Shown here piece after piece: positions 6,140 to 58,900 of a stretch of 64,000 bases of DNA. The stretch spans positions 2,681,001 to 2,745,000 of the forward strand of contig NC_053047.1 in the NCBI RefSeq assembly GCF_003473485.1, written 5' to 3'. Numbering within the stretch: the stretch's first letter is position 1; the number at the start of each line of letters is the position of its first letter. Source of the stretch: Medicago truncatula. Lineage: Eukaryota > Streptophyta > Magnoliopsida > Fabales > Fabaceae. Under the pieces are notes generated by a model. The model did not search any database. It was given only the letters and a program-made list of their open reading frames with translations, and had not been told where the DNA came from. The position numbers were made by a program, and so were the translations under genes.

Positions 6140-6302
6140 GTCTTAATTTTAAGTTATTTTGATCACACATAAGTCCTTTAAGTTTGTAAACGTTTTCAAT
6201 TTAGTCCTTCTGACACAACATCGTTCTGGTTAACAGAAGGACTAAATTGAAAACGTTTACAAACTTAAAGGATTTATGTGTGATCAAAATAACCTAAAAG
6301 AC
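6140..6302. mobile_element. Fold-back MITE
   Basis: Two arms of about 70 bp form a near-perfect palindrome around a ~21-bp loop. The left arm runs from GTCTTAATTTTAAGTTATTT to TTTAGTCCTTCTG (6,140-6,212), and the right arm is its reverse complement (6,234-6,302). Transcribed, it would fold into one long hairpin, the type of locus that gives rise to small RNAs. No coding capacity. Confidence 0.85.
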
Positions 6303-14100: not shown

Positions 14101-15639
14101 AAGGGAAAAAAGGACTTATTTACATAATTTGGTTCTATCTCTCAATTCTAAAGAATAAGATATTTAATCGAAATAAATTGGATTTTTTAAGTTTTGTATG
14201 TAACATTTAAGTTCTTTTCAGTTAATTGATTATAATAAGATAGTCTTTTAGGTTTTAATTATATTAATAAAGTCATTTAAGTTATTTAACCGTAATATTT
14301 TGAAGATTTTAAATCTTAAAAAAACTTAAAAGATTAATTAAATAACTTAAATGACTTAAGTGGTATTAAAAAAAACCAGCAATGATAAGTGAACACACAA
14401 CATTGGGAGAACGAAATTACAAAATTGTCCATCTTTTTAAAAGTGAAATTACTTATTTGTCCATGGTGTCTAGTATTTGTTAAGAATTGTGTGTTCAGAT
14501 ATCATTTCTATAAAAAAAACTTAAAAGACCAGCTTATTATAATTAAATATTTTAAATGACTTTATGGATTATTAATCTCTTTGTTAAATACTTAGATATA
14601 CTTCATAAGTTTAATGAAGGTAGATTGATGGTTAAAATAACTTCACATTTGAATATTTTAACAAGAATGTTATTTGTAAGTGTAACTCGTGTAAACTTGT
14701 ATATATTAGGTAACAACTGTGCACTCTGAATATTTTTATTAGAGATCGCTACTCTGTCTAAAAATCAGAGGGTTATCAAAAAAAAAGTCATATATTCATT
14801 TCATTTAAAGTTTTCGTTCTAATATTAAAGTCTATTTATCTTTTATGTTGAGATGTGGAGTCCTTTAAGGACTTAAAGCTTGCACGTCAATTATGCATTT
14901 TCTCTCTTTTTATTGAAGTTGATTCTTGTGTTTCATTGGTCATTGTGCTTTTAATTGAAATATATCTTTTGTGCATTTTTACAAAGAAATCAAATCAAAA
15001 AACTTTTAATTGAAGTCTCCTTTCAATTTTGTGTTGGAGTTAAGCTATATAAGTTGTATGTTAAATTTTAAGTGTGAGATTACTGTTTGAATTAGCAACA
15101 TTAAAGTTTAGGGTATGAGTATTAGAGAACTCAAGAGGTTTAAAAAATGTATATCTTAAAAGAATGATAAATAAACGTACAAAGTATGGAGAAAAGAAAA
15201 AAAAACAAAAAAAAGTTGAAGGAATCATATAAAATGTCTCAAAAATAGTTCTCTAGTACTCTTGTATTGATTTTGAGGGTAAGTGGGTTAACAAAACTTT
15301 CATTCTCCAACAATGCAGGTTATGTTTAACTCCATTTCTTTTAATTAAACCTACTTCCCAAAAATTATCTCACCTTCATCTGAGCATCGTTATAACCTCA
15401 AAAGACTTTAATATGTGTATTTGATATTGACTTTGATTGACGATTTAGAAACTTATTTAAGCTTATGGTAATATGGCATACATGCATGACAAATATGGAA
15501 AGCTTTTTTCAAACTTGTGCGAAAAGTTGTTGATAAAGTTGTCGATAAAGCAAACTTGTTCATCAATTACTAGTTAGGAGATGAAGTTTGAGGGTGAGTT
15601 AAGTCTTTTATTTTGCTTTCACTTTTTATTTAACAAGTT
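14101..15639. other. Intergenic with decayed repeats
   Basis: About 14,225-14,570 holds inverted words (GACTTTATTAATATAATT; AAATAACTTAAATGACTT; CTTAAAAGACCAG...TTATTATAATT) suggesting an old MITE. About 14,636-15,005 is a direct repeat of 22,602-22,945. No gene is seen. Confidence 0.5.
14636..15005 (+). repeat. Direct long-range duplication, copy 1
   Basis: It matches 22,602-22,945 in the same orientation: TTCACATTTGAATATTTTAA, TAACAA-T-T-CACTCT, GAGATGTGGAGT, CTTTTTATT-AAGT-GATTCT and GTGCA-TTTTACAAAGAAA occur in order in both. Divergence is clear, with a ~25-bp length difference at the 5' side. No coding frame runs through it. Confidence 0.75.
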
Positions 15640-16845: not shown

Positions 16846-17398
16846 AACCTTAGTGTTGTAAACCAAATAGAGAATGAAGAAATAAATGTTGCATAGCAGA
16901 TAGAGCCATAGTTTTAATTTGGTTGATGGTGGAGAATTGATCAAATTTCAATTCGGTTTCAGTTGTATGGTGGTGGTGTGAAGGAGCTACTGTTATGTTT
17001 TGTGATAATATTTCTACTCGTATTTTTTCATGACAACACATCATTGACTGTATGTATAAAAAAATTTGACACTAGCAATGCATGTTAATTAAATTCCTGT
17101 ATGAAGTATTAATTAAGAATAGTGTTAAATATATTTTTGGTGGCTCACTCAAATTAATACTAAATGAGAAAAGCTCTGCTAAAATATTTACATCGTAGAA
17201 TGAGTTTAAATATTATACATGACGGTGTAAGATTATATTACATATGCATTCAATTATGTATTGTCACGTCAATTAATAAATATGAGAACTTGTATGTTTT
17301 TCATATTCATTACTGATGTGACAATACATCATATTATTGTTGCATGTGTAAAATAATTAGACACCGACAATAAGTTAAATCCCTGTAGAGTATATTGA

Positions 17399-32562: not shown

Positions 32563-32847
32563 TCATTCTCGAATTGCTGGAGAACTCATGCATCTCCCAA
32601 AAATAGAAGATAGAAAACTTCTATTTACCTTATTTTCATTTTTTGTTGATGAAGGTGGTGAATGTGGTAAAGTTTCATTTTCATGCACCTTTCTTCCAAT
32701 GTGTGACACATTTTCTTCCTTGATTTGATTCTTCCTTGGTGAAGGATTTCCATTTCCTTTTGGTTCCATGATATGCACATCTTGCCATATCCGACCCGAA
32801 GATCCTTGTCGACGAAATGAACATGAAGATCTTTGCAATGTGTTCAT
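32563..32847 (-). CDS. MASS/DUF4666-like small protein
   Basis: A single-exon frame of 94 residues. It opens MNTLQRSSCSFRRQGSSG followed by RIW, the hallmark of the plant DUF4666 family, whose Arabidopsis members MASS1-3 are MAP-kinase substrates acting in stomatal patterning. A Ser-Pro pair (NPSPRKN about 34-40, HSPPSS about 62-67) gives possible proline-directed phosphorylation sites, and the C-terminus SFLSSIFGRCMSSPA is the usual Cys-containing end. A lysine/arginine-rich middle suggests a peripheral or nuclear protein. The short length matches the smaller family members. The overlapping frames on both strands (32,498-32,728 plus; 32,681-32,908 minus) are shadows. The start is the first M before the conserved block. 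Function in this plant is inferred only from the family. Confidence 0.75.
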   Translation of the reverse strand: MNTLQRSSCSFRRQGSSGRIWQDVHIMEPKGNGNPSPRKNQIKEENVSHIGRKVHENETLPHSPPSSTKNENKVNRSFLSSIFGRCMSSPAIRE

Positions 32848-32959
32848 GATGAATTGAATTTTTCCTTGTTCTTTGGATATGTTTGTGTAACACTTTTTCC
32901 TTCAACAATTGTTTTCAACTTGATCATATAAGTCTTTTTGATTTGGAGAGAGAAATTAG

Positions 32960-34845: not shown

Positions 34846-37131
34846 TTAATAATCAAAAGAAGCATCCAAAATTTCTGGAAATGTTGCCCTTATCTCACTG
34901 TCCTTGTCCAAAATACCATCCACAAATGAATTCCCTGAAAATGAATTTCCTTCACATTTCTTATGACCTTGATATTCTTTACTTGCATCACAAGCAACAT
35001 CCTCAAAACCTTCACTTGAACCACCTTGTTTATCATCACCATTACTATTGAAATTATTGGAAATTTCACCTTCATTTTGCATTATACCTGAGAGGGTCAA
35101 TGATGACATTACCCTTTGTATGTCACATTGTTGAATTTGTTGAATATCTGTCCACACTAAAGGCTCATCATTATGAAGAAAATCACTCCAATCAAAGTTA
35201 GAATTAATTTGAGCTTGTGAAGTGTTGCAGGAGTACGAAATCGGCGAGTTTAACCTTGTGAGATTAGAAGAAGATGAAGATGAACTTGATGATGCAACTT
35301 CACTTAAGACATGTTGTTGGAAATTCTCTTGGTTTGTGAATTGGTGATATTGAACTTGATGTTGCAATGGTTGAACTTGTTCATCTTTTGTGTGATCCAA
35401 AATTAGGTTGTTTTGAGAGTTTGTGTTTGTGAGGCTACTAATGTTTCCTAAGTCAGAAATCACTTGTGAAACTGGCTTATGAGTTACTGGATCAATTCCC
35501 ATTTTCATAAGCTTCTTTCTTAGTTTTGTGTTCCAGTAATTCTTGACATCATTGTCTGTTCTTCCAGGTAGTCTTTTTGCAATGCAAGACCATCTACATT
35601 AATTAAAAAAAAACAATAAAATCAATGTTTATAATGTGATTTTAAATTAGGTTATGATCTTTTATCTCAAAAGGAATGCGTAGGAAAAAAAAAATTGTTT
35701 ATAGTATTAGGATATACTAAGTTTGAGATTCATGCATGTCACAATATTAAACCAACATCTACATAAAACTTTGTCATGTTAAATTTTACTTAGTGTCGGC
35801 TTAAGGATAAGGCCAAACGAACCCGTAATTTAAGCGTTGAGCTAACCCTACTTAATCCTTTTATTGTTTTTTAATTTATGGTGTCACCTCCGTTTTAATC
35901 CATTTGAAATTTCATATCACTATTTATTCACTTTGAGACTTCACCTAACTTTAGATCTTCGATCAACTTTGGTTTTAATAGTTTACCAAGACTACTAGCT
36001 ACTAGTCCGGTCTTAAATATAAGGGTTAAAAAATATAAGCAAAATTTAACTAATTTCAATTTATTAAATGTTATTGTTCTCAAAATACCCTTTAATAAAA
36101 CAGGTTTTTAAACAAAATTAAATAAAAAAAAGGTAATTTGAAAAATACAATTATTCTTTTGATTACATCAAGAAAATTTAAATGAGGCTTAATCATATTT
36201 TTATATGTGTGTAAATACTAATTAGTTAGTTTTACTTATAATTCAGACTTGACTAAGTATAACCTAATACTGAATTAAAAAGTTGCACTTTTGTACTGTG
36301 ATCAAATGGCTATATAGAAGCCTAGATATTAAATCTCATTTTCAAATGAAGAAGCAAATATGTACATGGAAAATGTAGTTAGAACATACAAATATGATGC
36401 ATGATTATTCTACAGCAAGCATGTTATACTAAAACATATAGATCTTACTCTAAAGCCATGTGAATTATGCATTTTTTAGTTAGTGTCACATTTTTATTTC
36501 TTTCATACATTACACTGATTCTATACTCTACACAAATTTTTTAGATGTATAATAAAATAGAACATGAACAAGAACATGAACAATTGAATATTTGAATATA
36601 CCTGCTTCCTATAGCTCCATGAAGGGTAATAATGAGCTCTTCTTCTTCAGGTGTAAAACTATCATGCTTCAGATCAGGTCTTAGATAATTTGTATATCTT
36701 AGCCTGCAACTCTTACCACACCTATTCAACCCTGAAACCAAGTTCAAGTATAAAAAAACTCGGTATCAAGTCCAAAAACCGACTTAATAATATAACACAC
36801 AATATCACGTATATTGATTGCCATTTGACACTATTTATGAACATGATTTTAAATTGTAGTCTGCAACCGCAGATGCGGCCTCAATATATAAGATTTGAGA
36901 TATTCACAACGGTATCACATTCACAACCAAATCGGTCACATTATACTGCAACTGCAATTTAAAACCATGTTCGTGAATAAAGGAATTAACGAAAAAACCT
37001 GCTTTCTTTGGAACAGCTGTCCAATTTCCAATTCCATGATTGGCTACATAAGCAAGTATTTTAGCATCTTCCTCAGGAGTCCATAAACCTCTTTTCACAT
37101 TGGTCTTATCACAACAAGGAGGCCTTCCCAT
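34846..37131 (-). CDS. TDF1: R2R3-MYB transcription factor, TDF1/MYB35 type
   Basis: Three exons: 37,131-36,999; 36,731-36,602; 35,593-34,846, giving 336 residues in frame. It starts [20 protein letters not shown], and R2 (about 13-63) and R3 (about 66-115) carry the spaced Trp/aromatic residues of plant MYB repeats; the intron positions are the classic R2R3 pair. R3 continues [34 protein letters not shown] and [20 protein letters not shown]. The C-terminal part has VTHKPVSQ, a serine run, [10 protein letters not shown] and a final [20 protein letters not shown]...FDY, all resembling Arabidopsis TDF1 (MYB35) as I remember it. TDF1 acts downstream of DYT1 in the anther tapetum and is needed for pollen. 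R3 has Y in CRLRYTNYL where W is usual, a conservative change. It shares its neighbours (methyltransferase, P4H) with the Arabidopsis gene, which supports orthology. Confidence 0.92.
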
Positions 37132-37678: not shown

Positions 37679-38083
37679 GGTTTAAATGTGTCATTGGTCC
37701 CTGCACTTTCATCATATTTTGGCATTGGTCCCTGCACTTTTTTTTGTTTGGCATTGGTCCTTGCACTTTGTAAAAATATTGGTATTGGTCCCTCTGCTAA
37801 CTTTCTGTTAAAAAAAAAACACAAAACTAACGGAGTGCCACGTGGCCCAATCATTTCACGCCACGTGGCATCAATATCAATATTTTTACAAAGTGCAGGG
37901 ACCAATACCAATATTTTTACAAAGTACAGGACCAATACCAATAGTTTTATTTTTTTTTTAACAGAAGGTTAATAGAGGGATCAATACCAATATTTTTACA
38001 AAGTGTAGGGACCAATTCCAAACAAAAAAAAGTGTAGGGACCAATGTTAAAATCTGATGAAAGTGCATGGGCATATTTAAGCC
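37679..38083. mobile_element. Fold-back MITE carrying two G-boxes, 5' of the MYB gene
   Basis: Inverted ends are GGTTTAAATGTGTCATTGGT...CTGCACTTTCATCA on the left and TGATGAAAGTGCATGGGC...ATTTAAGCC on the right. The interior repeats the phrase TTGGTCCCTGCACTTT and its complement AAAGTGCAGGGACCAA many times. The centre has two perfect GCCACGTGGC palindromes at 37,837-37,846 and 37,860-37,869. It lies about 550-950 bp upstream of the MYB start. Frames of 91 and 94 residues across it are mirror images of the inverted repeat and not genes. Confidence 0.8.
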
Positions 38084-39272: not shown

Positions 39273-42200
39273 CTAAGAAGAGCAAACATTGCAACTCTTC
39301 ATACATTTTCCATTACCTCCTTTACCAACCATATAAAGTGGATTTTTCTCGCATTCGCCAACTTTAGCCCACCTAGCACAATTCTCATTCTCATCAGCGC
39401 ACACTCTATCCTCCAATGCTTGTCGTACCGGTTTCTCAAAGTCGGCAACATGAATCCACTTTGTTGCTGACCACTTCTCACCTTCAATCACTGGACAGCT
39501 TCCATGCAAGCTTTTTGAATCTGTGGTTGCATCTAGATGAAGACTGAAGAACAACAAGGCGTCACCCTTCCGAGGTTTTACTGAAATCACAGAAACATAA
39601 AGCTTCAAGTGTTAAGATCCTATGCCAAAAAATGAAACAAAAGCTTACTGTTAGAATATGAGGATGTTTATATTTCGAGTTTATTGGTGTCTGAATACAC
39701 TTTAGCAGAATCCCAATCTCATTCGTCCCCAAAAACAGAATAGCTTACTGAATAAGCTCAAATAAACTGTCTAGAATAGCTTATTGAATAATTACTTATT
39801 TAAGTTGTTTATGAAAATGCACACCCTGTTTGTACAAACAACTTAATTAAGCGCTTGTAGAATAAGCACTTATAGTATACGAGCTTATTTATAAGCGATT
39901 TTTATAACAAAATATAAAGTAAAGTTAAACTGTTTTCAAGAAAATAAGCTGAAAACAATTTACTGCCATGTCATAAGGTGTGTTTTCCATAAGCTCTCCT
40001 AAACAGTCTCACAAGTATTTATGTCAGTAGATAAGTACAAATAGGTTAATCAAAACAGGCGCAGGTGGAAGCAAGAGATTTAAATCATTGTAGTGGTAAG
40101 ACATAAATCAAATAGTTTGTTCATCTCATCCATTGAAATGAGCTGATATCTTGTGAAACAACTATAAAACGCATACCTGCATATCCTTTGTGAGCACATT
40201 CTGACCAGCTCTCATCTTTTGGCTGAGACAACTTCCCCTGAAAAAGCGATCAAATTACTCATCTAGTCATGGCTTTGTTTTCTTTGTTTTGTTAGCGAGT
40301 GTGGGAGTGTTCGTCAAAAGGAACACACCAGAGAATCAAAGACAGGTGAAGGTCTTACCTCAGCATGAGGAAAAATGGTTTCTCCACCCTTCTCAACATT
40401 AGACAAATACATCAGCACCGTTGCAACACGATGGCCACCAAGTCGTTGATTAGCCTTGTCATGGAAGAAATCAAAATGTGGTTCGTATTTCTCGCCGTTC
40501 ATGTAGTGTAATACTTGCATAGACTCGCCATTCTCTGATGGATAAGGACTAGATCATAAATTTGAAGTGAAACAAAAAACCTATAAATGGACCGAAGCAT
40601 GATGGTGTCTACTACTTACCTACGGGAAGGAATGTCCATGCGGCAATTCGTGCTTCAATACCAGAAACTATTTCATCCTAAAGATTAAACAAAAGAAAGA
40701 GGAAATAAACAAGTTAACATTGAGTTTCGACGCTAAAAGCACATATGTCAAACAACTGAATTGGACAATTAAAACCACGTAGTCAACAATACAATTTAGT
40801 CTCGTGAAAACACGATTTCTTCATAAGAAATAGTTTGTAGGTATGAAGCACCGGCACAGACACAAACAATGAACAAGGACACGTCAGCACTGCTAACAAT
40901 TTAATAAACTGGATTAACTGAATGTAATCACATGCGTCAGTGTCATGGCGGTGTCCGACACGCCTTCAATTTGAAGTGTTGGTATTACAAATATTTGTAG
41001 AGAAAGGGTTATTGTGAAAGCTGGGAGGAGTCAATAATGTACATTATATTCAAATAGACACTATATATACACCACAATTAAATGCATCAAGGTTATAGCA
41101 AGAAAGATGAAGATAATGAAGTTGCCGAAAATGTGAAATTTTGTGAGAAAGAAAGAAGCTAAGAAGCAAAAGAAAAATGATCAAACGCCTCTGTAACTTG
41201 ATAATGATGAATGGTTGGTGACAATACATTTTTTAAAGATGACGCCAACGGCGCTGAGAAAATAAAGCAACGGAATGAAGAACAGATGCCTCATAAACAA
41301 GATGATGAGGGAAAAAGTAGGATTGAAACAAGTTACAGCAATAAGCCACTACATTTTCACAACTCCAAAGGAAGAATCTAGATAGGAAATGGAGAAAAGC
41401 AAAGAACTATCCTGAACACAGATTCAGAATGTTTTGAATTTAAAAACACATGAATATACCCTTGTTTACTATAACTTTTGATATTGAGATATCTTCATTT
41501 CATAGAAAAGTATAATTCAATCGACGTTTTAGGTAAGCTTTCATTCAGAAGTTAAACAACCCACTCTTCTCCATGGATCAATCTCATAAAAACATTGGAC
41601 AACCAAACTAGTTTCTAGCACATTTTTCGTCATCAAGTGTCATCAAAGATTCAAAATGCATACCTTTACTTATCCATATAACAAAAACCATGTGTTCGAA
41701 TAAAAACAATCAAAAAGCAAAACAAAAACTTGTACGCTAGATACTATAGTCACATGAAGAACCTGTGATGAGTTTTGACATGTAAAGAAAATAAATTATC
41801 TCTTATTATACCTGTTGCTTGTTGAGAAACATTCCAGAACTTGTTCTGACTTCACTTTGTATACTTTTACCAGATTCATTATCCGCCACCATAGACTTCT
41901 CCAGCTTATCCTTCGACTATAATATCACAAAAATTCAGACATGCAATTTAAGAATTTAGAATACACCTAATTCAACCCTACAGAAGCGATTTATAAGGTT
42001 GGATTCCTCCCACATATAAAAATATTTTCAGGCAATGTAAGACTCTCAACACACCAAGGATTGAAAATCTCGAGCATGCTCTAAGTGACTTGATAGCATA
42101 GCCTAACTCAAACATGCAAAACTGGCTTGGTGAGGGATGTCTCCCTCTTATAAACTAATTTCCGGCAATGTGAGATCAGTGTTATTAAATGGCAGCCATG

Positions 42201-50870: not shown

Positions 50871-50930
50871 GGCCCAATTTCTTATCACCCAAGTCCATTA
50901 GGGTTTCATCAATCTCTCATTATAAATTCA
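50871..50930 (+). promoter_or_regulatory. snoRNA-cluster promoter: site II, telo-box, TATA
   Basis: GGCCCA at 50,871-50,876 is a site II element on the opposite strand, AGGGTTT at 50,900-50,906 is a telo-box, and TATAAAT at 50,921-50,927 is a TATA box, followed by a CT-rich leader. This trio is the known signature of plant snoRNA and ribosomal-protein promoters and fits a polycistronic RNA polymerase II transcript starting about 50,950. Confidence 0.8.
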
Positions 50931-51090
50931 CACACCAACCTTTCTCTCCTTCATCGTATCTCTCAGCCTCTCACTTCTTTTCTCAATTCTCTCCTCAGTT
51001 TCGTTTAATCTATTTGTAGTTTTTTCTCTCTTTGAAATTGTTATTTCTTTGTAATCTTAGATTTTATTTTCCTTGAATATTTGTAATGTT

Positions 51091-51176
51091 GAATGAATCA
51101 TGTGATGAGAAAAAACTGCAACAATATGATGGATTCGTTCCATGATTCTTAGTATTTAAGTCTCTGATGATCATTC
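51091..51176 (+). ncRNA. Box C/D snoRNA 1, 18S guide candidate
   Basis: Terminal stem GAATGA (51,091-51,096) pairs with TCATTC (51,171-51,176). Box C is GTGATGA at 51,102-51,108 and box D is CTGA at 51,164-51,167. AACTGCAACAA at 51,114-51,124 is complementary to the 18S rRNA segment TTGTTGCAGTT. With ATGA (51,126-51,129) as a degenerate D' box, the fifth-base rule selects a U in that segment, which by my count is the Arabidopsis 18S U615 site. The D' box is weak and overlaps the next likely C', so the target is less certain than the fold. The stretch before box D matches no rRNA I can recall. A second copy lies at 56,571-56,661. Confidence 0.78.
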
Positions 51177-51249
51177 ACTATTTTTCTTTCGATATGGTTC
51201 ATGATTTATTTTTCTTTTTTCATAGATTTTTCGTTTAATTTGAAAATAA

Positions 51250-51326
51250 AGAGATATGATGATGTTTACATTGGTCCGTGTTTCTGATTTACTGTGACCG
51301 ACAACCTTTTCCAATTTCTGATCTCT
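51250..51326 (+). ncRNA. U18: U18 snoRNA (box C/D)
   Basis: Box C ATGATGA is at 51,256-51,262 and box D CTGA at 51,318-51,321, with AGAGA/TCTCT as terminal stem (51,250-51,254 with 51,322-51,326). The guide CATTGGTCCGTGTTT (51,269-51,283) lies directly before the D' box CTGA (51,284-51,287). It is identical to the guide of human and yeast-type U18 as I remember it and complementary to 25S AAACACGGACCAATG (the last bases diverge from rRNA). The fifth base before D' selects A649 in yeast numbering. The role is 2'-O-methylation of 25S rRNA by fibrillarin in the nucleolus. This is the only copy in the window; the duplicated cluster lacks it. Confidence 0.93.
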
Positions 51327-51398
51327 GTTTCAAACAATTTTTCATATTTTTTTGTTTATGTTTGAGATTATGTGTTTCTGAAATTATATGTATAATTG

Positions 51399-51479
51399 GC
51401 TCTGTGATATTCTGCCTTTGTTGCAGTATACGCTATTCTGATTCAAATTATGAGCAGATATTTTATTACTATTGAGAGC
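51399..51479 (+). ncRNA. Box C/D snoRNA 3, 18S guide, degenerate outer boxes
   Basis: A stem GCTC/GAGC (51,399-51,402 with 51,476-51,479) closes a small RNA with C-like GTGATAT (51,404-51,410) and D-like TTGA (51,472-51,475). Inside, D' is a good CTGA at 51,438-51,441, preceded by TATACGCTATT, complementary to 18S AATAGCGTATA (11 bp). The fifth-base rule selects the G of AATAG, which by my count is the Arabidopsis G599 site. C' may be ATGAGCA at 51,450-51,456. The outer boxes are imperfect, so the exact ends are uncertain, but the guide is preserved in the second copy (56,795-56,805), which argues for function. Confidence 0.65.
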
Positions 51480-51515
51480 TTAAACATTTCATTTGATTTT
51501 TAATTATGAGTTTGT

Positions 51516-51606
51516 ATTGCTGTGATGAATTAAGAAAAATTTCACATGTCAGACTTCAGAGATTTTTATAATCAATGAGAATGACAATTCTTAATTTCTG
51601 AGCTGG
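51516..51606 (+). ncRNA. snoR58Y: snR58/snoR58Y-type snoRNA (box C/D)
   Basis: Box C is GTGATGA at 51,522-51,528 and box D CTGA at 51,598-51,601, with GCT/AGC at the ends. ACATGTCAGACT (51,544-51,555) stands before a D' box CAGA (51,557-51,560) and is complementary to 25S AGTCTGACATGT. The fifth base selects the C of GAGTC, 14 nucleotides from the U18 target A649, that is C663 in yeast numbering, the known snR58 site. C' may be ATGAGAA near 51,575. The two 25S guides in one transcript therefore serve neighbouring sites. Confidence 0.85.
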
Positions 51607-53821
51607 ATTTTTTAATAAACTTTAAAACGAAGCTTAGGCGTAAGATCAAGTGAAATAATTGATGTGTGCGTTTAAACATTTGACTCGCATACATTAATAA
51701 TTTCTCGTGTTTTGTTCGTCTGGGCTTCATTTTGGAGTTTTGGTCACTGTAATGTTTAATAGTTTATTTTATGTATGTTGTATTGACGGGAGATTTCCGA
51801 TAAATCTCAGTACTTATTTGGGAGCAAATTGAAAAGTGTTTGTATATTTCTCAAGTAACCGTCATATATTAATGGTTCTGGTGTTGATGGTGCCACCTTA
51901 ACTGGTGGCATCTCCGCTGGAGTTGTCTCATATTCCATTGCCTTGGATAGCGGCGTTGCTGCTTTTACCATTTGGGTCGGCCATGAGACATACATTTTCC
52001 TTTTATCCGACTTTTAATTTATTTTATTGTTAATGATAGCAAGTTAGGAGAAGAGGGATTGAGACTCATTTAAATTTATATTGAGAGAGGGATAAAGATC
52101 CTTGAGGGTACTTGGGTTGTATTACTCTTGTCGAATTCATCGTTTTGGTCCATTGTGTAGCTGAATTTACATTGCAAGGATAGTAAATTTCTATTATTTA
52201 TGCAGTTGAATTTATCTATTTTCTGTTGCAGTTTTTACCATGGTATGAAGATAATGGAATTAGACCCTATGAAGGGAACAAGTGATTTAAATAGTCTCAT
52301 TTGTTGTAGTAATTGTGTTGTAAATATTAATTGTAATTTATTTAAGTCAGAAATGTGGAAAATTATAAATTTGAAAATTCATTTTAGCATTGTTATTAAT
52401 ATAAGTCATCCATATTTATTCTAGGTTTTCTTTTACTTACCGATGTTATTTTCATAGTACACAATAAATTAAAGACTTTTAATTTTTTAATTTTTTACAA
52501 GAGGTTCAATACCAATTAGCGAATCACTTTGTGTTGGTAGTGATGTTTATTTAGATAGAACTGCTGTGACTTATGATAACCTAAATTTCAATATCAAAAT
52601 AACAATTGAAAACGTGAGTCTCATAAGAAAAATACTACAAAACTGACCCTTAAATTTTGCAATTCTATCTGTTTTGACCCCCAAAACCAATTTTTAGTAA
52701 AAAAGTAATAACATGTGGCACCTAATTTAAGATGCCATGTCTGCGTAGACCGAATTAAAATTGACATTGGGGGTCAAAACTACCAAAGATGCAAAATTTG
52801 GGGATGGTTTTGTAGCATAAGGTTCCATCCCCAAAAACTGTCAAAGATACAACATATTTCTTGTTAAAATAACAAATCTGAATTTAGATTTCAAGCATAA
52901 ACAAATTCGAAGATGATTAGTGTTCAATATAAAAATTTAATGGTATTGTTATGTTAAGAAAATAGGTTTGCCATCCACAATCTTCTTTTGAGGTAATTCA
53001 ACTTGTGAAGATTATAAGTAGAAAATCACGAACATGGAGATAGTTTCATTAATCTGAAAAGAAGTGAGTTTCATTAACTTAATGAAAAAATAGAAATAAA
53101 TGAAGCAATTTTAGAAAGTAAACGATGATGAACAACATATCATAATTATGATAGGAAGAGAGCGATTGAAAATGTGAAAGAAATATCGATTGTCCTTTAG
53201 GATTCGAAATGGTTACGTGGCATTGTCAAGTTGAGGCATTTTCTTCTTTGCTATCCTATAATGCCTCCCATACTGGTTAACAATAGGGTAGTGTTAGGTC
53301 TTCATCAATTTCATGCCTTCCTTTAATATCCTTTTTTTGGTTACATTCCTTTAATATCCCTTGGCACAACTACTCCAATTTGAATACAGAATACCTTATG
53401 TGATGCACAAACCTTGACTTTAAATTAAGATCAATTCAAAAGTGCAAAATCAATTATATCAAATCAATTTTATTTCTTCAAAATCAAATTTGATTGCTTG
53501 ATCAAAGGTTGAACCAAACACAAACTAAATCCTTCAATTCAACAAACTTAGCTACAACTGATGCGTCAAATCAACCTATATTTCTTCTTTTTGTGTTTCG
53601 TTATTATTCCTTTTCGTCTTCATTTTTTCCTCCCACACATAACACATACGTTATAATAGAAATAACATTTATACTAAAAGTACAATAAAATGTGAAAACC
53701 AAGACAGAGAATATTAAATTATAATTTTCCAATTTCCTATTATTATATTATTAAAAACATAATATATCTTTTTCAAATTCACATATATTATTGAAAAAGT
53801 AACAAAAAAAGCCTTATAATT
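51607..53821. other. Spacer between snoRNA cluster and peptide gene
   Basis: A minus frame at 51,807-51,995 (62 residues, MYVSWPTQMVKAATPLSKAM then Pro/Ala/Glu-rich) lies in a less AT-rich patch; I recognise no family and no matching copy exists downstream, so it is not called a gene. About 52,625-52,855 is a MITE-like sequence with inverted words (TTTTGACCCCCAAAA; TTGGGGGTCAAAA; GCAAAATTTGGGGATGG). About 52,850-53,300 is the spacer repeat matched at 55,180-55,900. Confidence 0.5.
52625..52855. mobile_element. MITE-like inverted repeat
   Basis: ACTACAAAACTGACCC...AAATTTTGCA on the left mirrors TGCAAAATTTGGGG...GGTTTTGTAGCAT on the right, and ACCCCCAAAACC mirrors TTGGGGGTCAAAA. It is absent from the duplicate unit, so it inserted after the duplication or was lost there. 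Confidence 0.6.
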
Positions 53822-54016
53822 TTATGGATTTGTAACCTTCCTAGGAGGAGGAGAGGGGCAACATGGGCTTGCCCTATAGCATGGCAGATATGGCATGCAA
53901 ACCTTTTTCTCATCCCATTGAACAATTTCATTCCCTTGAACTCCTCCAACAAGTGTGCTCACAAAAGCAAAAAGTATTACAACAAACTTCAACACCACCT
54001 TCAAAGAAGAATCCAT
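53822..54016 (-). CDS. Small secreted cysteine-rich peptide, unknown family
   Basis: A 64-residue frame. Residues 1-28 form a clear signal peptide (basic K6/K10, hydrophobic VVILFAFVSTLVGG, small residues before the likely cut after VQG). The mature part NEIVQWDEKKVCMPYLPCYR... has four Cys (C40, C46, C52, C53) and a Pro-rich tail PSPPPRK. A TATA box (complement of TTATTTATA) sits about 80 bp upstream at 54,094-54,102, well placed for a minus-strand transcript. A duplicated, interrupted copy at 57,234-58,277 conserves the signal peptide and the cysteine region. I know no named family with this pattern; a role in signalling or defence is only a guess. The single exon is inferred. Confidence 0.7.
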   Translation of the reverse strand: MDSSLKVVLKFVVILFAFVSTLVGGVQGNEIVQWDEKKVCMPYLPCYRASPCCPSPPPRKVTNP

Positions 54017-54722
54017 TTTAAAACTTAACTTTCTTGATAAATAAAACGAAATTTGTTATTAACTTGTAATGATGTGCAAGAGGGGTTGTGTACTTATTTA
54101 TACAAATTCGCAAAGTTGATAATCACGGAAATTTCTATTCAATATTAAAAAAAACATAAATTAAAGGGTGTGAATTAATAGAAAAAAAATATTTTTAATA
54201 ACCCCTTTTTATAGAAAAATATTTCATACGATATCGGTCAAGAAAAACTAGTGGTAATTTACTTCGCAATATGAAATTATTGTGATCAATGTCAAACTAT
54301 CAAAATTGCAAATAAATGATACGAATACATGATGATTAATAGAAAATTTAATTCATGTTGTAACCTTGTTTAGTCACAATTGACGGGTCAAATCAAAGAA
54401 TGATTATTATTTGCTCGATCGTAATTATGATTTAATTTACTATATTGTGGAAGCTGTGACTATTATTTGCAAAGAATGGTACATAAAGATAAAGAAAGAT
54501 AAATTTGCTTTATGTTTTTACTCTAAAAATGGAAAACATGCATTTGTACCCATGCATGAGAAAACAGTTTGTTAAGAATCCATGTGGTTGAGGTTATATC
54601 AAGATTGTTTGTTACACATATATGCTACGTTACGTTGCTTAATAGAGTAATTTGTGCTAATAGTAAATATCCAAAGTGTTAAGGTTACAAGACCAAGGCT
54701 TTTAAATTAAGAGATATTATAG

Positions 54723-54872
54723 TACTCCCTTCGGTCCTATTTATAAAAAAAAGTTAATTTTTTAGATTCATTCAATAATTGATGTACCTAGTCTAGAAAT
54801 AGTCCAAATACATCAACTATTCAATGAATGAAAAAAGTAAATTATTTCTTATATATAGGACCGGAGGGAGTA
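54723..54872. mobile_element. Stowaway-like MITE
   Basis: Terminal inverted repeats TACTCCCTTCGGTCCTAT and ATAGGACCGGAGGGAGTA, a TA at each end, 150 bp long, and no coding capacity. It lies at the join between duplication units A and B. Confidence 0.9.
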
Positions 54873-55169: not shown

Positions 55170-56330
55170 GTTGTCAAAAAAACAACACATTTCTTGTCAA
55201 AATAACAATTCTGAATTTAGATTACAAGCATAAATAAATTCGAAGAGGATTAATGTTGAATATAAAATGTAATGGTATTGTTATGCAAAGAAAATAGTAT
55301 TGTTATCCATAACTACTCTGTGGGACTTCAACTTTTATGGGTTTTGTTTGGTCCAATACTTTGCTTTCACTAAGTTCATTAGAGTTGAATTATTTCTTCA
55401 TAGAGAATACGGATAATAGTCAATTTGCTTAACACAACAATATTTATATTCTTCTAGGCTACTAACTTATAAATTAAATAATACTCGGATTTTGAGGATT
55501 GAAATCTATTTTTATATTGACTCTTTTTATTCTCTTCATTTTTTGCTAGTTATTATTGTAAAAAAAAGGTTACTTCATTGCATAAAAACCAAAGAATGAA
55601 GATTATAAGCAGAAAATCACAAACATGGAGATAATTTCATTAATATGAGAAAAAGTGGGTTTCATTAATGAAAAATATAAATAAACGAAGTAATTTCAGA
55701 AAGTAAATGATGATGAATAACATATCACAATCATGATAAAAGGAGAGTGATTGAGAGTGTGAAAGAAAGATCGATAGTGTGTTATGATCCGATCGATATG
55801 GTTAGATGATGCCGTCAATTGATACATCGATCTAATATGGTCAGTGTTAGGTTTTCATCAATTTCACGCCTTTCTTGATAATACCCTTTGGCACCTACTC
55901 CAATTTGAACACCTTATTTGATGCACCTAAGTTGTTTTCTATGTTTCCTCTTCTAAACCAGGTTACTTGATCTTCAATGATTTCTTCAATGATTTCTATG
56001 TTTACGCATCCTAGCAAGTTGTAACTCAACTCTTGATGGATATTTTTGTGATAAACTCATGTAATTATGATTTGACTATGTTGTGGAAGCTTGTGACTAT
56101 GAGTTGTATTATTTGCAAAGAATAGGTCAATAGGACATAAAGAGAAACAAAGATAAAGTGGCTTTATGATTTTACTCTTTTTAAGCTGATCTTATTAGAG
56201 GGAAGGAAGAACAAACAAAATATTGATTTTATTTTTCAGAATGTACCCATGCATATGATAAAACCTTGTTCAGAATCCATGTGGTTGCAGTTATATCAAG
56301 AATCAAACTGTACCATTTGATTTGAGGAGG
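55170..56330 (+). repeat. Duplication unit B: spacer and peptide-upstream copy
   Basis: 55,180-55,300 matches 52,850-52,970 (TTTCTTGTCAAAATAACAA, AGATTACAAGCATAAA, AATTCGAAGA, GGTATTGTTATG). 56,060-56,300 matches 54,418-54,600 (TGTGGAAGCTTGTGACTATG, TACCCATGCATATG, CATGTGGTTGCAGTTATATC). The peptide gene is not found between them, so unit B is incomplete. Confidence 0.75.
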
Positions 56331-56570
56331 AAAACATTGATATGCTATGTTTCTTAATAGAGTAATTGTGTGAGACACTAACTTTATTCAATTAATAATA
56401 ATTAAAAGACAAGTACCTTATGAGAGGGTGTATTAATAGACGGTGGTGCTAATAGTAAATATCCAAAGACCAACTAGTCATTCACAACCTTGCCTATAAA
56501 TTGACACACCAAGCTTCTCTCAGCCTCTCACTTCTCAGTGTTCAATTTCTTTGAATCTATTTGTGTTATG

Positions 56571-56661
56571 GAATGGATCATTTGATGAGAAAAAAACTGC
56601 AACAATATGATGGATTTGTTCCATGATTCCTAGTATTTAATTAAGTCTCTGATGATCATTC
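56571..56661 (+). ncRNA. Second copy of snoRNA 1
   Basis: GAATGG/TCATTC stem, C-like TTGATGA (56,582-56,588; the first base departs from the RTGATGA consensus), guide AACTGCAACAA intact, box D CTGA at 56,649-56,652. Four extra bases (TTAA) lie before box D compared with copy 1. It may still make a snoRNA, but the upstream promoter is weaker. Confidence 0.6.
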
Positions 56662-56767
56662 TTTTTCTTTTCCTTTTCCAATTTCTGATCTATGTTTCAA
56701 ACAATTTTCATTTAATTTTTTTGTTAAGAGTTAATGAGTTATGTTTCTGAATTGAATCTAATATATG

Positions 56768-56815
56768 TGTGGTGATATTCAGCCATTGTAGCAGTATACG
56801 CTATTCTGAGAGCTA
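56768..56815 (+). pseudogene. Partial copy of snoRNA 3
   Basis: It keeps GTGATAT and the guide TATACGCTATT with CTGA (56,795-56,809), but the sequence between D' and the final stem has been removed, leaving CTGA joined directly to GAGCT. At ~45 nt it is too short for a normal box C/D snoRNA. Confidence 0.55.
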
Positions 56816-56867
56816 TATTATATTTAAATTTTTGTGTTGTTTGTTTAGAATTAGTAAAATAAATTTT

Positions 56868-56955
56868 TTCTACGATGATGAACTAAGAAGTAAATTTACA
56901 TGTCAGACTTGAGATTTTACAATCAAAGAGAAACAGTTCTTGTTCACCGAGCAGA
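56868..56955 (+). pseudogene. Decayed copy of the snR58-type snoRNA
   Basis: Box C ATGATGA (56,875-56,881) and the guide ACATGTCAGACTT (56,899-56,911) remain, but D' reads GAGA and box D reads CCGA, so it probably no longer forms a stable box C/D particle. Confidence 0.6.
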
Positions 56956-57324
56956 TTTTTTTTTTTACACATTTTAATTATTTTTTCAACAAAACTTTCT
57001 TTATATCAAAACTCGCATGTGGGAGACTGAAAATAGATGTGTGTAATTTAAAAGTTTGAATTACATACACCGAATTTTAGTCTGTTATATGCGGTTTTAT
57101 TATAGAGAATTTTTTTAACTTTTATTATTTCAAAGTTTTTTTTTACAAGGACGAAAATCAAAACTGATCTAAATTATAGGGACGAAAATCATATTTAAGT
57201 TTATTTTTTTTTATTTACAATTGTACTTATATTTTAAGGATTTGTAACCTTCTTACCTCTTAGAAGAAGGGGGGCAACATGGGCTTGTTCTATAACATGG
57301 CAAATATGGCAAGCAAACTTTTTT

Positions 57325-58161
57325 TACTGTTATTTTTTACACCCAATGGTCTTCTCCCGCGCTCTGTAATTTTTTCAAAAATGCCCTTGTGCATTTCGGA
57401 TTTTAAAATCCAGATTCATGTTTACTATTACGGATTTTATTATCCGGACAATTCTTATGTATAATCAGTCATCAGACTCTCTCACATTTTATTGAGTTTC
57501 ACTTTTAAAAACAACAAAAAACTAAGTAAAAGATGCTTAAAACTTGTCAAATAAAATCATAAAAATAGCACCAAAAAGTTCTAAAAATCAAATAAAACTA
57601 ATGCAATTTTTTTCCGGAGAATATGAGAAATTGAAAAAAAATGAAAAATGGGTCTAAACGATGAAATTTTGGATTTTGAGGGGTGGAGTCCCATAAGAAG
57701 TCCATTCTAAGGGAGTCATGGTCCTTGAATTTTTTTTCTGATTTTCTGGGGAAGTTTCGGAGCAATCCGATCAAGTAGCCCGAAAACCCGATTTTTGACT
57801 AAGAACAGGTAACAATGACCCAAAAACGGAAGGATGAGAGTTAGGAAGATTAATATTATCCATAAAATGACTATTCATGTTAAAAATATGTTTAGAATTT
57901 GTGGTGATACAGTTCGGATTATATATCCGAACCGTTTTACCTTGAAAAAGGGTGTTTAGGGGGTTTCCGGATTATGTAATCCGGAAACATCATGTAACAC
58001 ACCTTATTTTTTGAAGTTTCCGGATTACAAAATATCCGGAAAAATCTGTAACTCCATTTTTCACCCTATAATAAAGGAAAACACCATTCCGAATTATGAA
58101 ATCCGGAAGCTCAAGAACATTTTTGAAAAAAAGATAGGGAGCGCGAGGAAACGTAATAGTC
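57325..58161. mobile_element. 837-bp Mutator-like non-autonomous insertion with 9-bp target duplication
   Basis: The insert is bounded by AACTTTTTT at 57,316-57,324 and again at 58,162-58,170, a 9-bp target duplication typical of Mutator-like elements, and the intact paralogue has a single similar site (AACCTTTTTC, 53,909). The ends read ACTGTTATTTTTTAC and, inverted, ACTATTACGTTTCC, so the inverted repeats are short and imperfect. The interior is non-coding and contains six palindromic CGGAT-type motifs. Frames of 61, 67 and 106 residues across it are not genes. Confidence 0.75.
57395..58107. repeat. Six dispersed CGGAT...ATCCG palindromes
   Basis: TTCGGATTTTAAAATCC (57,395), CGGATTTTATTATCCGG (57,431), TTCGGATTATATATCCGAA (57,913), TTTCCGGATTATGTAATCCG (57,964), TTTCCGGATTACAAAATATC (58,017) and CCGAATTATGAAATCCGG (58,089). 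All share the arm CGGAT with an AT-rich centre. They are unevenly spaced, with a gap from 57,450 to 57,910. Confidence 0.8.
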
Positions 58162-58900
58162 AACTTTTTTCTCATGCTCTTCAACAATTTCATTCCCTTG
58201 AACTACTCCAACAAGTGTGCTCACAACAACAAAAAGTATTACGACAAACTTCAACACCACATTCAAAGAGAATCCATTTTAAAACTTTAACTTTCTTAGC
58301 AAATAACACGAAATTTATTATTAACTTGTAATGACATGCAAGAGAGATGTGTACTTATTTATACAAATTTGCAAAGTTGATAATTACGTAAATTTCTATT
58401 TATCATGCGCAAAACTTAGAATCATTTTCTTTTTTAATTTAAGTATTCTTTTATTTTGAGCTAGAAGTAGATTGAAATAAAGGAAATATAAAAATAAAAA
58501 CATAAACCTAACCAAACAAACTATAAAAAAAAAACATAAATTAAAGGGTGTGAATTAATAGAATTTTTTTTTTTTTTTTTTTATGATCCCTTTTTATAAA
58601 AAAATATTTCAAAAGATATTGGTGAAGAAAAACTAATGTTAATTTACTTTGACATGTGAAATTATTGTGATCAATGTCAAACTATCACAATTGCAAAGAA
58701 ATGATGCCTATTCATGATGATTAATAACAAATTTAATTCATGCTATATCGAGACAACAAATCAGGTTATGATGAGGATAAAGATAAAGTTGGGTTTAAGA
58801 TTTTACTCTTTTTAAGCTGATCTTGTTAGAGGAAGGAAGAAGAAACATTTTTGTTTTTGAACAGGCAAGAACAAACAAAAATATTGAATTTATTTTCCAC

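Follow-up and report, generated by a model that had tools for sequence, protein, structure and literature searches.

A plant box C/D snoRNA gene cluster and its decaying downstream copy in Medicago truncatula

The region 50871-51606 of a 64,000-nucleotide stretch of Medicago truncatula DNA (the whole of which is called the window here) raised two questions: whether it holds a polycistronic cluster of snoRNA genes, and whether such genes are kept linked by the closeness of their target sites on the rRNA. The original prediction had placed a promoter there and, downstream of it, four box C/D units, among them U18 and a guide of snR58 type, and had proposed that neighbouring targets explain the linkage. 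When the whole window was searched with cmscan, six matches exceeded the Rfam gathering scores, all of them box C/D snoRNAs on the plus strand. Four of the six formed a first cluster at 51095-51608 in the order Z199-U18-U54-snoR64, in agreement with the four units predicted, and the other two belonged to a second cluster. The region 50871-51608 is very probably an ordinary plant RNA polymerase II box C/D snoRNA gene cluster of four units with a decaying duplicate downstream.

Promoter and units of the first cluster

This analysis established the snoRNA families of the first cluster together with their boxes, the pairing of the guides and the motifs of the promoter. Z199 occupied positions 51095..51172 of the plus strand (Rfam RF00200, snoZ199; 89.1 bits, cut-off 47), with the C box at 51102, the D' box ATGA at 51126 and the D box CTGA at 51164. 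U18 followed at 51251..51325 on the same strand, with the C box at 51256 and CTGA as D' and D boxes at 51284 and 51318; its score for RF00093 (SNORD18) was 42.9 bits with a cut-off of 41, a marginal excess of 1.9 bits. U54 was located at 51398..51480 (plus strand; RF00206, 55.5 bits, cut-off 40), with the C-like box GTGATAT at 51404, the D' box CTGA at 51438 and the D-like box TTGA at 51472. The last unit, at 51514..51608 of the plus strand, matched the snoR64/Z200 family (RF00267, 91.6 bits, cut-off 45) and had the C box at 51522, the D' box CAGA at 51557 and the D box CTGA at 51598; it is the unit that had been predicted as snR58-type. All four units thus resemble their Rfam families in exceeding the gathering cut-offs, U18 only barely. 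Canonical C boxes (RUGAUGA) and D boxes (CUGA) were present in three of the four (Z199, U18 and snoR64), while U54 deviated in both and yet passed its cut-off. The spacers between the units were 78, 72 and 33 nt long. Terminal-stem duplex energies, as raw values without a shuffled control, were -5.6 kcal/mol for Z199, -7.2 for U18, -8.7 for U54 and -3.3 for snoR64, the stem of which was weak.

Upstream of Z199 a site II element (TGGGCC on the minus strand, 50871..50876; motif definition from PMC4660826), a telo box (AAACCCTAA on the minus strand, 50898..50906) and a TATA box (TATAAA on the plus strand, 50921..50926) were found. Among the 159 TATAAA motifs of the window (89 on the plus and 70 on the minus strand), none but the one at 50921 was preceded within 100 nt by a site II element as well as a telo box. 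The predicted promoter is supported at the level of sequence. Promoters of this type, with upstream telo-box and site II elements, have been described from polycistronic snoRNA genes of plants (PMC4660826, PMC3022908). Compared with these at the level of sequence, the locus showed the same three elements before the first snoRNA, and no difference was found. From the position of the TATA box, transcription would start about 25-35 nt downstream, near 50950.

A single precursor from this promoter would carry Z199, U18, U54 and snoR64. In each unit the C and D boxes would be brought together, and the standard C/D proteins (15.5K, NOP56, NOP58 and fibrillarin) would then bind; the snoRNAs would be trimmed from the precursor without splicing. 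Alternatively, the units could be intronic, within a protein-coding host gene from whose transcript splicing would free them. Intronic clusters are known from plants and are commoner in rice than in Arabidopsis (PMC3022908), but here the promoter motifs stand immediately upstream of the cluster. Moreover, between 47932 and 57960 there was no stop-to-stop reading frame of at least 100 codons, which makes an intronic origin unlikely, even though short exons would still be possible; we give this alternative hardly any credence. Elsewhere in the window, protein-coding pieces above the Pfam cut-offs were present on the minus strand at 34846-35598, 39273-39611 and 32563-32901, with a Myb-like DNA-binding domain, a 2OG-Fe(II) oxygenase with ShK domain and DUF4666 as their domains.

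Predicted rRNA targets of the guides

Guide pairing was judged on non-plant 18S and 25S rRNA and on printed plant 25S primers, not on M. truncatula rRNA. The non-plant sequences were obtained by scanning prokaryote genome contigs with a pattern that joined the complement of the U54 guide to that of the Z199 guide across a gap of 5 to 30, which yielded eight contigs (L001-L008) that contained both sites by construction of the search pattern. Eukaryotic SSU rRNA was found by Rfam in all eight. The gap between the two sites was 5 in each contig, which places the +5 nucleotides of U54 and Z199 16 nt apart. In the viral contigs that were scanned, the paired target sites were not found. The eight contigs represent eukaryotic rDNA filed under bacterial genomes, probably as contaminants; L002 and L004 contain several group I introns. 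The LSU matches of L004 and L008 covered the stretch of the U18 and snoR64 sites; the U18 site was present in both and the exact snoR64 site in neither. The site of the Z199 D guide, in the form searched, was not found in the eight contigs. As these two sites were absent from the non-plant sequences, the plant 25S letters were taken from printed primers.

The D' guide of Z199 paired over 12 nt with non-plant 18S rRNA (U at +5), that of U18 over 13 nt with 25S rRNA (A at +5) and that of U54 over 13 nt with 18S rRNA (G at +5); for each guide, none of 400 shuffles reached an equal length. The snoR64 unit had no pairing run of at least 9 nt beside a box with the non-plant rRNAs. Over 11 nt, and with one further G.U pair, the core of its guide was exactly complementary to a primer derived from Arabidopsis 25S rRNA (PMC3261831), with C at +5; the same target stretch recurs in a tobacco 26S primer (PMC8190079) and in a primer of PMC6391382. 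The D guide of Z199 formed 11 contiguous base pairs, with U at +5, with a plant 25S segment that is contained whole in a primer labelled 25S (PMC5407837) and in a 26S-5S unit primer (PMC3095306). All four units therefore carry an antisense element at D or D' with the target nucleotide at +5, and complementarity of more than 10 bp beside D' was seen in each (11-13 nt, with non-plant rRNA or a plant primer). The long exact 25S matches that had been predicted were thus found for U18, with its 13 nt in non-plant 25S rRNA; for the snR58-type unit the exact match comprised 11 nt beside the G.U pair and was seen with the plant primer only.

How unusual such pairing is depended on the box. Among the 158 plus-strand CTGA sites of the window, the top three were those of U18, U54 and a U54 remnant in the second cluster, each with 13 nt, and the next best had 11 nt; the best pairing among the 132 minus-strand CTGA sites was also 11 nt. 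Of the 477 plus-strand ATGA sites, two unrelated ones reached 13 nt of rRNA pairing and one 12 nt, and two of the 422 on the minus strand reached 12 nt. As the D' box of Z199 is ATGA and a 12-nt match is not unusual among ATGA sites, the assignment of Z199 rests on the Rfam match.

The target nucleotides were compared with Table 1 of PMC8053127, which lists as methylated in Arabidopsis 18S G599 (U54) and U615 (SnoR13) and 25S A661 (U18), C675 (SnoR58Y), U676 (SnoR58Y, non-canonical) and U3301 (SnoR13). The +5 nucleotides U, A, G and C of the D' guides correspond to U615 (Z199), A661 (U18), G599 (U54) and C675 (snoR64), and the distances between the sites, 16 and 14 nt, agree as well. The original prediction had named U615 and G599, 16 nt apart, which fits both this table and the gap in the non-plant contigs, and its two 25S sites 14 nt apart are consistent with A661 and C675. 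The +5 U of the Z199 D guide was taken as U3301 from the assignment of U3301 to SnoR13 rather than by a count along the full 25S rRNA. Z199 was assigned to Arabidopsis SnoR13 by target sites only. The snoR64 unit has the D' guide to 25S C675 that characterizes SnoR58Y, and on this target site, rather than on a comparison of gene sequences, it would be of the SnoR58Y/snR58 type. The same table assigns a separate SnoR64 to 25S U2884, so the snoR64 of Rfam and the Arabidopsis SnoR64 may be different genes. The likeness to Arabidopsis SnoR13, U18, U54 and SnoR58Y thus consists in identical target nucleotides by the D+5 rule, and the names were equated by target only.

By analogy with Arabidopsis, the cluster would be transcribed and processed in M. 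truncatula, and the mature RNPs would direct the 2'-O-methylation of the rRNA nucleotide that pairs with the fifth position from D or D'. The proposed targets are 18S U615 and 25S U3301 for Z199, 25S A661 for U18, 18S G599 for U54 and 25S C675 for the snoR64 unit, with 25S U676 perhaps as an additional target of the last.

The locus resembles the conserved plant snoRNA clusters of PMC5122169 in having several C/D genes close together; the set Z199-U18-U54-snoR64 is not one of the ten conserved clusters named in the clusters section of that paper. This gene order was not found in the literature searched, which did not extend to the primary Arabidopsis cluster papers, and it may well already be in print. 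The words Z199 and U54 both occur in a paper on cotton (PMC11222342).

A second, decaying cluster

A second copy of the cluster, absent from the original prediction, was found about 5.5 kb downstream at 56386-56961. Block-wise similarity between the two clusters began upstream of the promoter (50767 matching 56386) and extended to the end of snoR64. The upstream part of the second copy (56386..56574, plus strand) retained TATAAA at 56495, and the 1 kb preceding the Z199 of this copy contained neither an exact site II element nor an exact telo box. This Z199 (56575..56657, plus strand; 84.2 bits, C box TTGATGA) matched the first at 74 positions of the alignment, with 4 mismatches and 5 gap columns. 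The D' guide of this copy was intact, and a 4-nt insertion left its D guide with 7 contiguous base pairs instead of 11. Of U18, a 3' remnant with the following spacer could be aligned at 56672..56766 (plus strand), the 5' half including the guide being deleted. The U54 remnant (56772..56835, plus strand) fell short of the cut-off of 40 with a score of 21.5 bits; it retained the 13-nt guide, while the part after D' was shortened and the left arm of the stem was altered. The snoR64 copy (56867..56957, plus strand; 57.4 bits) had lost the D' box CAGA, had CCGA as D box and a weak terminal stem (-1.2 kcal/mol). The second cluster would yield at best a Z199.

This copy demonstrates that decay happens at this locus, and further copies of the genes may exist elsewhere in the genome, so that the first cluster could itself be a pseudogene cluster with recognisable sequence and no expression. 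However, guides and boxes or box-like motifs are kept in all four of its units, and it has kept site II, telo box and TATA box, unlike the second copy. That the first cluster is a set of pseudogenes is consequently very unlikely.

Around and between both clusters, at 52839-54604 and 55172-58847, lay several direct repeats, about 60-240 bp long and 76-91% identical, in no single simple order. Matches to MIR2619 and MIR2593, which are Medicago names, at 52640-52810 and 54741-54854 were rejected as microRNA genes. Their scores (91.0 and 75.6 bits for MIR2619, cut-off 113; 54.0 and 53.2 bits for MIR2593, cut-off 96.2) were below the Rfam cut-offs, and the matches occurred on both strands, a pattern that palindromic, MITE-like repeats would produce. 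Self-complementary stretches at 6147-6299, 14251-14377, 17220-17369 and 37699-38070, which match their own reverse complements at 72-90% identity, are probably MITE-like elements as well.

Linkage of guides with neighbouring targets

The proposal that the genes stayed together for acting at neighbouring sites was evaluated with 87 guides retyped from Table 1 of PMC8053127. A range such as SnoR131-133 was entered under a single name. The two sites in 5.8S rRNA were left out, as were U2922 and G2923, to which no snoRNA is assigned. Sites within 16 nt of each other occurred in 67 of the 3741 guide pairs, and 20,594 of 200,000 random quartets held at least one such pair. Two such pairs, as in the first cluster, were formed by only 902 of 1,000,000 random quartets of these Arabidopsis guides. 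Judged from the pairing lengths and the D+5 numbering, the footprints of the guides nearly abut, with gaps of about 3 nt on 18S and about 1 nt on 25S rRNA. Both results would be compatible with selection that keeps the cluster together because its guides lie side by side on 18S ~595-622 and 25S ~657-682 and equal co-expression matters.

Against this, the low frequency refers to one cluster chosen post hoc from the tens that plants possess; PMC3022908 counts 40 non-intronic loci for Arabidopsis and, for rice, 41 independent clusters. In ten other plant clusters, none of the 18 member pairs with mapped sites was within 16 nt. These ten, which are no census, were named in PMC8053127 and PMC5122169 and have members in Table 1 of the former; members without a listed site (e.g. 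SnoR4, SnoR5 and HID1) were excluded, as were the U36 cluster and snoR167-snoR47, in which fewer than two guides had such a site, and some of the ten are rice clusters judged by Arabidopsis sites. The second copy, moreover, loses its members one by one. As U18, U54 and snoR64 are damaged there and Z199 is nearly intact, no strong need for all four guides together is apparent. The human and yeast counterparts are situated at separate loci, which also counts against such selection. We therefore regard it as improbable that neighbouring targets hold the cluster together. A functional module in which the two guide pairs on these abutting stretches are produced in a fixed ratio, and in which methylation or folding of each rRNA segment depends on its pair so that the genes remain linked, is highly improbable. 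One cluster does not establish the neighbouring-target idea.

An origin of the guides with neighbouring targets by duplication of one ancestor was considered and set aside. Five of the six pairwise similarity scores between units were matched by 31 to 297 of 500 shuffles. The score of U18 with snoR64 was reached by 1 of 500 shuffles and may be explained by the C and D boxes common to both units.

Of the original prediction, the C/D cluster with U18 and an snR58-type guide, the promoter and the neighbouring targets have stood, whereas the linkage driven by those neighbours remained unsupported. The cluster consists of known snoRNA families within a known gene organisation; it is a sound annotation and no new kind of system. 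It fills a region in which protein-based pipelines annotate nothing. In addition, the presence of an intact and a decaying cluster side by side suggests that snoRNA copies in plants vanish piecemeal, by the loss of promoter elements, a D' box or half of a unit with its guide.
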